DNA of 64,000 bases from Firmicutes bacterium ADurb.Bin146 (lineage in GTDB: Bacteria; Bacillota; Clostridia; DUPQ01). Positions 1 to 3,491 of the stretch are shown here, piece after piece. Positions within the stretch are counted from its first letter, which is position 1. Each line of letters begins with the position of its first letter. The position numbers and the translations under genes were made by a program. Location: NCBI GenBank assembly GCA_002070475.1, contig MWDI01000016.1:1-64000 (forward strand). The letters run 5' to 3'. The notes below the pieces were generated by a model, which saw only the letters and a list, made by a program, of their open reading frames with translations, was not told where the DNA came from and made no database searches.

Positions 1-335
1 AGGTGCAGAAACTCAACGAACTTGTCAGAGGTTGGATTAACTACTTCAAGATAGGAAGTATGAAAACTCTCTGCGCGAACCTAGACAGTAACATTCGCTA
101 TCGTTTACGAATGTGCATTTGGAAACATTGGAAGACTCCGCAGAACAGAGCAAAGAACCTGATGGAACTTGATGTACCAAGGTGGGCGGCTTTTAAAGTA
201 GCTTACTGTGGAGATAAATATGCGAGACTTGCACACAATGGATGGGTACAGAAAGCAATAAACAACAAGAGACTAACCTCATTTGGATTAGTCTCAATGT
301 TAGACTACTACATCGAAAGGTGTGTCGCTTGTTAA
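1..335 (+). CDS. Group II intron reverse transcriptase/maturase, C-terminal fragment
   Basis: The reading frame is open from the window edge; the codon at base 3 is internal, so this is a partial gene. The 110 visible residues match the C-terminal maturase region of intron-encoded proteins: LRGWINYF-like start (VRGWINYFKIG), the basic stretch RYRLRMCIWKHWK, and the ending LVSMLDYYIERC. The reverse-transcriptase palm domain, with its YADD motif, must lie to the left of the window. The protein promotes splicing and mobility of its own intron. The stop at 333-335 is followed directly by domain V, the usual arrangement when the ORF sits in domain IV. Confidence 0.85.
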   Translation, partial: VQKLNELVRGWINYFKIGSMKTLCANLDSNIRYRLRMCIWKHWKTPQNRAKNLMELDVPRWAAFKVAYCGDKYARLAHNGWVQKAINNKRLTSFGLVSMLDYYIERCVAC

Positions 336-342
336 GTTGATT

Positions 343-422
343 GAACCGCCGTATACGGAACCGTACGTACGGTGGTGCGAGAGGTCGAAAATTTCCCTAA
401 TAGGGATTTTCTCCTACTCGAT
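343..422 (+). ncRNA. Group II intron domains V and VI
   Basis: Domain V: CCGCCGTA (346-353) pairs with TACGGTGG (368-375), including a G-T wobble. A two-base CG bulge (366-367) follows, then the inner stem TACG/CGTA and a GAAC tetraloop (358-361). This is the standard catalytic hairpin with its two-nucleotide bulge. Domain VI: CGAG (378-381) pairs with CTCG (417-420), and AGG (382-384) pairs with CCT (413-415). That leaves A416 unpaired at the expected branch-point position. The intron should end near 422. Confidence 0.85.
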
Positions 423-454: not shown

Positions 455-1603
455 TTAATCAATAAAGCGCGAAGGATACCAGCCGCTTGCTACTATGTAG
501 TACTTAGCTCCTTCTATTGGTGAAAAGGAGGACAGGTCTGGAACATAGAAGTAGATTCTGTTACTGTATCCGAATCTGTCGCCTAACAAAGTATATAAGG
601 CTGTAAAACTGTACTTCTCAATCATTCTGCCATCACAGGGAATTAGAATACCACGGTCATTTATTTCATCGATATTTTTAGCAAGTATTATCTGACCTAT
701 AAACATATCATTAGAGATATAAGATACCACTGTGGGAAAATAGTTTATATCCCCTATAGTAACTGGATTATATTCGCCATCATATTCTGGAAACTCACCG
801 ATTGTGAATATCTGGTAATTCATTTCACTGTTTGGTACTGCAGAGGAAAAATCGGGCAATGTGAACTGTTCCGCATTACTGTTGTAATCTTCTCCGAGAA
901 GAACATATAACTCGTTATATTCGCTTTTTGAAAGGTACTGTCCCGAAACACAGTATTTTGAGTACCCATGTTCATAGCTATAGGGATTCAGATTCAGTTC
1001 CCCTATGCTCTGTTTTTCAAAATCAAAGCCTGATGCCTTTATTGCAGCAGGATACATGCGGTAAACAATCGGAGCATTCGGCGGAGGAGTAGGAGTGGCT
1101 GTTTCTTCAGTCATGTAATTCTTTACCCATGTATAAATATCATACTGGTTTGTCGTAAGGTATTTCTGTTCAGTTACCTCACCATTGTTAAATATCGCAT
1201 ATAACGGAGTTCCATCTGTATATAGCCCGAACCTATTCAAATATGTATCTGTCATGTGATCTACATAATAAATTTTCACATCACGGCCCCATGTACTATA
1301 AATGGTTTCGAAAAAACCGTCATACAGGGCATACTTTTCACCTTCCTCAACAAAATAAACAAGCTCAGGCTGTGATGATTTTAATACCTTCGTATCAAAA
1401 TCCGATTCTGTTACTACTGTATATTTTTGCAGGATAGCTCCACCAAGCATTATGTTATTATCTGAAAACAATCCTTTTTTGTATGCTATCAATATTCCGA
1501 TTCCGCACAAAATAGCAGTTATCAATACACCGGCAATAAATACAAAAACATGCTGTTTGTTAAGCTTGAATTTCTTTTTCGTTATCTTATCAGTATTACC
1601 CAT
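455..1603 (-). CDS. Membrane-anchored protein with thioredoxin-like and two tail-collar-like domains
   Basis: 382 residues. One N-terminal membrane helix (about 18-41) with a basic cytoplasmic side predicts an extracytoplasmic body. Residues about 62-165 resemble a thioredoxin fold: a strand ELVYFV, a VDHMTDTYLNRFGL segment, then GTPLYAIFNNGE with the cis-proline position. There is no CxxC, so redox activity is unlikely. A T/P-rich linker (168-178) follows. Two repeats then resemble the phage tail-collar (MdpB-like) fold: one at about 200-272 with GQYLSKSEYNELYVLLG and FTLPDFSS, one at about 300-382 with CDGR, ALYTLLGDRFG, VPDLSS and a final YPSR. The family match is by eye. The start has a GAGG ribosome site. 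Role unknown; surface adhesion or assembly is only a guess. Confidence 0.7.
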   Translation of the reverse strand: MGNTDKITKKKFKLNKQHVFVFIAGVLITAILCGIGILIAYKKGLFSDNNIMLGGAILQKYTVVTESDFDTKVLKSSQPELVYFVEEGEKYALYDGFFETIYSTWGRDVKIYYVDHMTDTYLNRFGLYTDGTPLYAIFNNGEVTEQKYLTTNQYDIYTWVKNYMTEETATPTPPPNAPIVYRMYPAAIKASGFDFEKQSIGELNLNPYSYEHGYSKYCVSGQYLSKSEYNELYVLLGEDYNSNAEQFTLPDFSSAVPNSEMNYQIFTIGEFPEYDGEYNPVTIGDINYFPTVVSYISNDMFIGQIILAKNIDEINDRGILIPCDGRMIEKYSFTALYTLLGDRFGYSNRIYFYVPDLSSFSPIEGAKYYIVASGWYPSRFID

Positions 1604-1775: not shown

Positions 1776-3491
1776 ATGGGAATTGACAGTGGTTTAAGAG
1801 GAGCTGATCTGGTATGGGTAATGACAGGTACAGCATTGGTATTTTTTATGCAGGCGGGTTTTGCAGTAGTTGAAGCAGGTTTAACACGAGTAAAAAATAC
1901 TGGGAATATTATAATGAAGAACCTTATGGACTTTTGTCTAGGGACTATAGTATTTTGGGTACTTGGGTATTCATTAATGCATGGTAAAGATATAGCAGGA
2001 CTTATAGGGTTGCCGACAAATGGGTTTATAACTGGGAATATGGATATGACTTCTCTCATTTTCCAAACCGTCTTTTGTGCAACTGCTGCAACAATAGTGT
2101 CCGGAGCTATGGCTGAAAGAACCAAGTTTTCCAGCTACTGTATTTATTCAGTAATAATAAGCTTATTTGTTTATCCTATATCCGGACACTGGATATGGGG
2201 AGGTGGATGGTTAAGCCAGCTGGGATTTCATGACTTTGCAGGTTCAACAGCAGTACACATGGTAGGTGGCATATCAGCATTAATTGGAGCGAAAATCCTT
2301 GGACCTCGTATTGGCAAATATGACAAGGACGGGCATCCAAAGGCAATACCAGGCCATAATCTGACATTTGCCGCATTAGGCGTATTTATCCTGTGGTTCT
2401 GCTGGTTCGGATTCAATGGAGCATCAACGTACGGAGTAACAGGACAGGAAGCAAAATTAAGCTTGATACTTGTAACTACTAATATGGCTCCTGCTGTAGC
2501 AGCAACAACTTGTTTATTCATAACCTGGATAAAATATAAAAAACCTGATGTGTCAATGACATTCAATGGTGCGTTAGCTGGTCTTGTAGCAATAACAGCA
2601 GGAACTGATACAGTCTCTCCTTTGGCTACTTTTATAATAGGTATTATTTCCGGATTTGTGGTAGTGTACGGCTGTGAATTTTTGGAAAAGAAGGCAAAGA
2701 TTGATGATCCGGTAGGAGCTATTGCTGTGCACTGTTTTAACGGAGCGCTAGGAACAATACTAGTCGGTGTATTTTCGTTTAATGAAGGTATTGCAGGAGC
2801 TTTTAGGGGAAATACTTCTTTTTCTGAAGCATTCAGGTTTTTAGGAGTCCAGACTTTGGGAGTAGTGGCAGTAGCGCTCTGGGTAGGCGTAACAATGACT
2901 ATTCTATTTCATATTATAAAAAAGACCGTCGGTCTGAGGGTGTCAAGAGATGAGGAGATAGGCGGATTGGACTTTTCAGAACACAATCTGGCGACTGCTT
3001 ATTCAGGATTTATACTTAACAATGAAGAAGATATAGACAAACTGGATGTAATTGAGTACCATCCTTCAGCTAGTGTTCCTGCACAGATGAAGCAGGAAAC
3101 CAGCAAATCTTTAACAGACAGTTTGCAGCCCAAAATGACACTGGTATCTATTATAATCAAAAAGCCTAAATTTGAAGCTTTGAAATATGCTTTAAATAAG
3201 ATTGGAGTGACAGGAATGACAGTGACTGAAGTAATGGGATGTGGAATTCAGAACGGACATACTGAGACATACAGAGGGGCTCCTATGGATATAACACTGG
3301 TACCTAAACTTAAGGTTGATGTCGTAATAAGCGCAGTTCCAGTTGAGAAAGTTATTGAAGCAGCCAAGACTGTACTTAATACAGGGACATTCGGAGATGG
3401 CAAGATTTTCGTATCTGACATTGAAGATGTAATTAGAATAAGAACAGGTGAAAGAGGATTTGATGCTTTACAGGATATTTACAGTGAATGA
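1776..3491 (+). CDS. Ammonium transporter with fused C-terminal PII (GlnK-like) domain
   Basis: 571 residues. Residues about 1-400 are an Amt/AmtB transporter. It shows the typical start (DLVWVMTGTALVFFMQAGFA), the VHMVGG segment with the first pore histidine and a later AVHCFNG carrying the second. Residues about 455-571 are a complete PII signalling domain (VTEVMGCG, GHTETYRG, GDGKIFV, IRIRTGE). In free-standing systems GlnK is a separate protein that plugs the channel; here the regulator is tethered. The T-loop position equal to E. coli Tyr51 is methionine (RGAPMDI), so uridylylation there is not possible. ATP/2-oxoglutarate control is still plausible. Strong AAAGGAGG ribosome site. Expression is probably attenuated by the hairpin upstream. 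Confidence 0.93.
   Translation: MGIDSGLRGADLVWVMTGTALVFFMQAGFAVVEAGLTRVKNTGNIIMKNLMDFCLGTIVFWVLGYSLMHGKDIAGLIGLPTNGFITGNMDMTSLIFQTVFCATAATIVSGAMAERTKFSSYCIYSVIISLFVYPISGHWIWGGGWLSQLGFHDFAGSTAVHMVGGISALIGAKILGPRIGKYDKDGHPKAIPGHNLTFAALGVFILWFCWFGFNGASTYGVTGQEAKLSLILVTTNMAPAVAATTCLFITWIKYKKPDVSMTFNGALAGLVAITAGTDTVSPLATFIIGIISGFVVVYGCEFLEKKAKIDDPVGAIAVHCFNGALGTILVGVFSFNEGIAGAFRGNTSFSEAFRFLGVQTLGVVAVALWVGVTMTILFHIIKKTVGLRVSRDEEIGGLDFSEHNLATAYSGFILNNEEDIDKLDVIEYHPSASVPAQMKQETSKSLTDSLQPKMTLVSIIIKKPKFEALKYALNKIGVTGMTVTEVMGCGIQNGHTETYRGAPMDITLVPKLKVDVVISAVPVEKVIEAAKTVLNTGTFGDGKIFVSDIEDVIRIRTGERGFDALQDIYSE

Follow-up and report, generated by a model that had tools for sequence, protein, structure and literature searches.

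Two collar domains and a cysteine-free thioredoxin-like domain on one membrane-anchored chain in a Clostridia genome

Collar domains take their name from phage fibres. The locus studied here raises the question of what two of them do on a single bacterial protein that also carries a membrane helix and a thioredoxin-like domain. The gene sits where contig C16 (MWDI01000016.1) begins, in the 2.5-Mb assembly of Firmicutes bacterium ADurb.Bin146, and we analysed the first 64,000 nucleotides of that contig, referred to below as the window. A preliminary description made from the DNA letters had proposed this domain layout and regarded it as unfamiliar. Our searches of the literature found no paper on collar and thioredoxin domains as one protein. 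As set out below, the parts are known and the combination is new, the new element being only the carrier, a membrane-anchored pseudo-thioredoxin.

Results

Gene and locus

The interval proposed for the gene holds a real open reading frame, and its strand had to be corrected to minus, so that it is read from 1603 to 455 (Table 1). About 30 bp beyond its stop codon sits the end of a group II intron (window positions 1-422, with the maturase end at 3-335 and the catalytic end at 344-422); the contig begins inside this intron. On the other side of the collar gene, and divergent from it, is an ammonium transporter gene, followed by genes for a phosphatase, a DUF2779 protein, a dehydrogenase, a PHP-domain protein, and a Fic protein. 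The neighbours are metabolic genes, and no phage-like genes were seen in the first 8.5 kb of the window. A Pfam Collar search of the whole genome recovered both domains of the 382-aa protein and no other collar. As a separate observation, the ammonium transporter (1776-3491, plus strand) is fused to a P-II regulatory domain in a single chain of 571 aa.

Table 1. Features of the collar gene, with window coordinates.
Feature	Position	Strand	Basis
Whole gene, 382 aa: anchor, pseudo-thioredoxin, T/P linker, and two collar domains	455..1603	-	Open reading frame; Pfam Collar twice; AGAGG before the ATG start codon
K-rich N-terminal stretch and membrane helix, residues 1-41	1480..1603	-	Hydropathy; alignments with L005 and L074; weaker K..QGFIAG.L matches start PF07833 stalk proteins
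Degenerate thioredoxin domain running into the linker, about residues 60-171; cysteine-free, GTP kept at the cis-Pro site	1090..1426	-	Profile, alignment, fold search
T/P-rich linker, about residues 168-179, present in L005 too	1066..1102	-	Alignment
First collar domain, residues 198-273	785..1012	-	PF07484; collar model
Core of the second collar domain, residues 321-380, with its leading strand starting near residue 298	464..643	-	PF07484; collar model

Membrane anchor

Hydropathy analysis gave one membrane segment only, in keeping with the single N-terminal helix described earlier. The helix spans about residues 19-41 (the best 19-residue window begins at residue 21, with a mean of 2.83) and is preceded by a positively charged, lysine-rich stretch. 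In alignment, the window protein and two relatives introduced below (L005 and L074) have in common the motif K-x-K-L-x-K-x-H-x-x-x-F-I-A-G-x-L. Searched alone, this N-terminal motif returned the known members and weaker matches, the latter from 6e-5. Twelve of the weaker matches were read, and four of these had K..(Q/K)G(F/Y)(I/L)AG.L followed by a PF07833 stalk domain, a domain that occurs on exported proteins. These matches favour, and do not prove, a reading of the helix as an export signal or signal anchor that would leave the rest of the protein outside. We rejected a lipoprotein, since C33 has no lipobox in front of it and is not kept in L005 or L074. The resemblance to the anchor of the window protein is itself recurrent among Clostridia, where K..QGFIAG.L starts the PF07833 proteins at L103, L105, L106, and L109.

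Degenerate thioredoxin domain

The region had been described as thioredoxin-like, with GTP at the cis-proline site and no CxxC, and this was confirmed; moreover, the domain proper (about residues 60-165) has no cysteine at all. The only cysteines of the protein are at positions 33 (in the helix), 218, and 323 (one per collar), so that none lies between residues 34 and 217 and the CxxC of catalytic thioredoxins is absent. The GTP aligns with the IP of thioredoxins. The domain is like thioredoxin TrxA (PF00085) in fold and in its N-terminal F(D/E)..VLKS..P.LV.F, and unlike TrxA in being cysteine-free and part of a membrane-anchored protein. Taken alone, it remained below the Pfam threshold (E = 0.056), whereas its relative at L074 was above the Pfam cut-off. 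Against a classical thioredoxin model built without the window domain, it scored 19.7 bits (best of 3,000 shuffles, 7.7), compared with 34 to 35 bits for L005 and L074, which makes it the most diverged of the three members. A profile of all three matched PDB thioredoxins at 5e-10. An AlphaFold2 model of about residues 50-171 (pLDDT 81) adopted a thioredoxin fold, with a Foldseek match to thioredoxin at 9e-8; it is supportive and not independent, because its input alignment contained thioredoxins. Judged by its residues, the thioredoxin-derived domain cannot carry out CxxC thiol chemistry.

Linker and collar domains

The T/P-rich linker was found where it had been proposed, and two collar repeats follow it. 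Pfam Collar matched over two stretches (E = 3.7e-15; PF07484, 56.1 bits against a cut-off of 24), and the repeats aligned to each other with a score of 78, compared with a maximum of 49 among 2,000 shuffles. The hallmarks assigned to the pair were only partly shared: the second repeat has CDGR, PDLSS, and YPSR, whereas the first has CVSGQ, PDFSS, and FPEY. Correspondingly, the last strand and terminal YP.R of MdpB-type proteins are clear in the second collar, and the first ends in FPEY. In the PDB, a 19-sequence collar profile picked out T4 gp12-type short tail fibres (best 9e-4). The tandem was modelled with moderate quality only (pLDDT 69, pTM 0.49); with Foldseek, the T4 short tail fibre came first in the PDB without reaching significance, and viral collar proteins in BFVD matched at up to 2e-6. 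Because a joint full-length alignment put the C-terminal half of the thioredoxin domain under the collars, the two halves were modelled separately, and each model describes its half by itself. Profile and fold searches thus returned a thioredoxin fold and then PF07484 twice, in the order foreseen, and no single model in Pfam, NCBIfam, or PHROGs spanned the full chain.

Comparison with known collar proteins

Outside the family itself, the best sequence matches were small bacterial collar proteins of the MdpB (microcystin-dependent) type, PF07484. These have in common a collar of about 80 residues, no insertion before the last strand, and a YP.R end; they are free proteins of 80 to 200 aa, often encoded in arrays of two or three genes, whereas the window protein carries two collar copies on one membrane-anchored chain. 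The T4 gp12 short tail fibre collar (1OCY, 5IV5, 9CUY) is similar in profile and fold. In fibres of this type the collar is followed by a receptor-binding insertion of some 100 residues, and the genes lie in a phage tail context. The window protein has neither, its alignment containing no insertion and its neighbours being metabolic, and it also has no fibre shaft. A closer parallel in layout comes from four Firmicutes loci (L055, L057, L058, and L059), where one chain carries three fused collars behind a signal-like segment at its N terminus. These apparently exported proteins likewise carry tandem collars, and they differ in having three of them, in having no thioredoxin domain, and, at L055 and L057, in long repeat regions after the collars. 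The novelty first attributed to the whole layout is accordingly narrowed: exported tandem collars already exist, and it is the pseudo-thioredoxin carrier with its membrane anchor that stands.

Relatives and distribution

The same architecture was found elsewhere among uncultured Clostridia, and its distribution is very sparse. Within the genus, one of the three other genomes has a tandem-collar copy (L002; 168 residues, cut by the contig end, 44% identity, 1.2e-42); its named counterpart with the identical protein, L068, is Clostridia bacterium STD2_39. Within the class, one further genome among 391 has the layout (L005 in G309, from another family; E = 8e-16); its named counterpart with the identical protein, L069, is an uncultured Clostridia MAG. 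L005 comprises the anchor, cysteine-free thioredoxin, T/P linker, and first collar; its contig stops at LGQ, by eye equivalent to the IGQ where the second collar of the window protein starts. The join from anchor to collar is covered by these two members only, one of them cut by a contig end. Our gene also lies at the end of a MAG contig, as might be expected if assembly or binning had artificially joined two genes, but the same join occurs independently in L005, in another MAG and family, and this contradicts such an artefact, whose probability we regard as negligible.

In a phylum-wide sample, a genome of another class (G750; L062/L074) encodes the anchor motif and pseudo-thioredoxin with no collar. 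Given this protein, the collars appear to be an accessory. The anchored pseudo-thioredoxin may have come first, with collars added later, an order that three sequences cannot prove. Among 46 genomes of the class of G750 there were no further anchored pseudo-thioredoxins, and searches for them in that class and in the class of the window returned only ordinary thioredoxins or nothing. A scan of genome contigs gave no match with the single window sequence; with an alignment it gave L068, L069, and distant collar proteins. Gene neighbours differ among the family loci and none is conserved: the genes beside L005, L034, and L074 are not common to these loci, and L005 is adjoined by a tRNA cluster. 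At L074 (6273-9184), the collar-less protein is encoded between genes for a PrsW-family protease and an S41 peptidase.

Discussion

On balance, we think it probable that the 382-aa protein is a self-contained, surface-displayed binding protein built on a non-catalytic thioredoxin spacer. The helix would be an uncleaved signal anchor with its N terminus inside and everything after it outside the membrane, the dead thioredoxin domain would be a compact spacer or assembly platform, and the T/P linker would give the head enough reach to pass the wall. This head would be made of the collars, with chains probably assembling into a trimer like that of T4 gp12, and its ligand would be a polymer or glycan, either on the surface of the cell itself or on another surface. 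Since the assembly encodes no other collar protein, such a trimer would have to consist of copies of the same chain. In support of this reading, collars occur on the apparently secreted Firmicutes proteins described above, and the alignments place the same layout in a second family and the collar tandem in a congener. By analogy, support also comes from a virophage: its three collar-domain tail proteins, which are consecutive, were reported to assemble into a stable heterotrimer able to bind Synechococcus cells (PMC12724248). A more specific version, that the lineage has built a receptor-recognition head from collars on a dead-thioredoxin stalk, either to make contact between cells or to mimic a phage fibre, is speculative and rather improbable. 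In T4-type fibres and the virophage, receptor binding is attributed to the region that lies past the collar, the collar itself being structural. The short collars of the window protein lack that region, and the head might by this comparison be an assembly module instead of the binding site.

The roles could also be reversed: the pseudo-thioredoxin would be the active module, serving exported proteins outside the cytoplasm as a redox-dead chaperone or docking domain, and the collars would be no more than an oligomerisation tag. Collars are known structural elements of trimeric fibres, as the gp12 matches recall, and in G750 the anchored pseudo-thioredoxin stands alone between its two peptidase genes. 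However, peptidase neighbours are absent at the other loci, and of the three thioredoxin domains that of the window protein is the most remote from classical thioredoxin, so that we consider this reading unlikely. We give less credence still to an exported protein with no specific role, whose two domains are decaying and whose gene is on its way out. The very sparse distribution, the lost active site, and the nearby group II intron would suit such decay; yet the frames are open, the domain order is kept in two families, and the collar motifs are conserved at 44% identity between congeners.

A phage-related gene, left over from a prophage or encoding a phage receptor or decoy with a borrowed tail-fibre part, could account for the fold matches to viral collar proteins. 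We nevertheless disfavoured this origin and hold it to be very unlikely: 50,697 phage records gave no match at 1e-5 and, with the cut-off relaxed, only matches of E ≥ 0.6, no viral contig relative was found in IMG/VR, the neighbours are metabolic, and the closest collars belong to bacterial MdpB-type proteins. Among plasmids, a Paenibacillus stretch was the sole match; it shows similarity to collars and includes a tail fibre protein.

With this protein, the means by which bacteria present collar domains away from phage particles gain a new carrier, and a small family of thioredoxins comes into view that are membrane-anchored and cysteine-free. Elsewhere among the fetched loci, bacterial collar genes occur in threes (L009, L010, L011, L012, L053, and L064), including two sets of three at L073 (4637-8456) and five successive triplets at L071 (7989-17310), and in pairs (L006, L007, L008, L036, and L054). 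The triplets and the three-collar fusions suggest heterotrimers as the functional unit in cells; sets of two or three, together with the fusions, fit the published heterotrimer (PMC12724248). This pattern makes the role of cellular collar proteins directly testable. At L036 (1492-3129), the pair of small collar genes is immediately followed by a gene whose product resembles, by eye, a discoidin-type surface protein.
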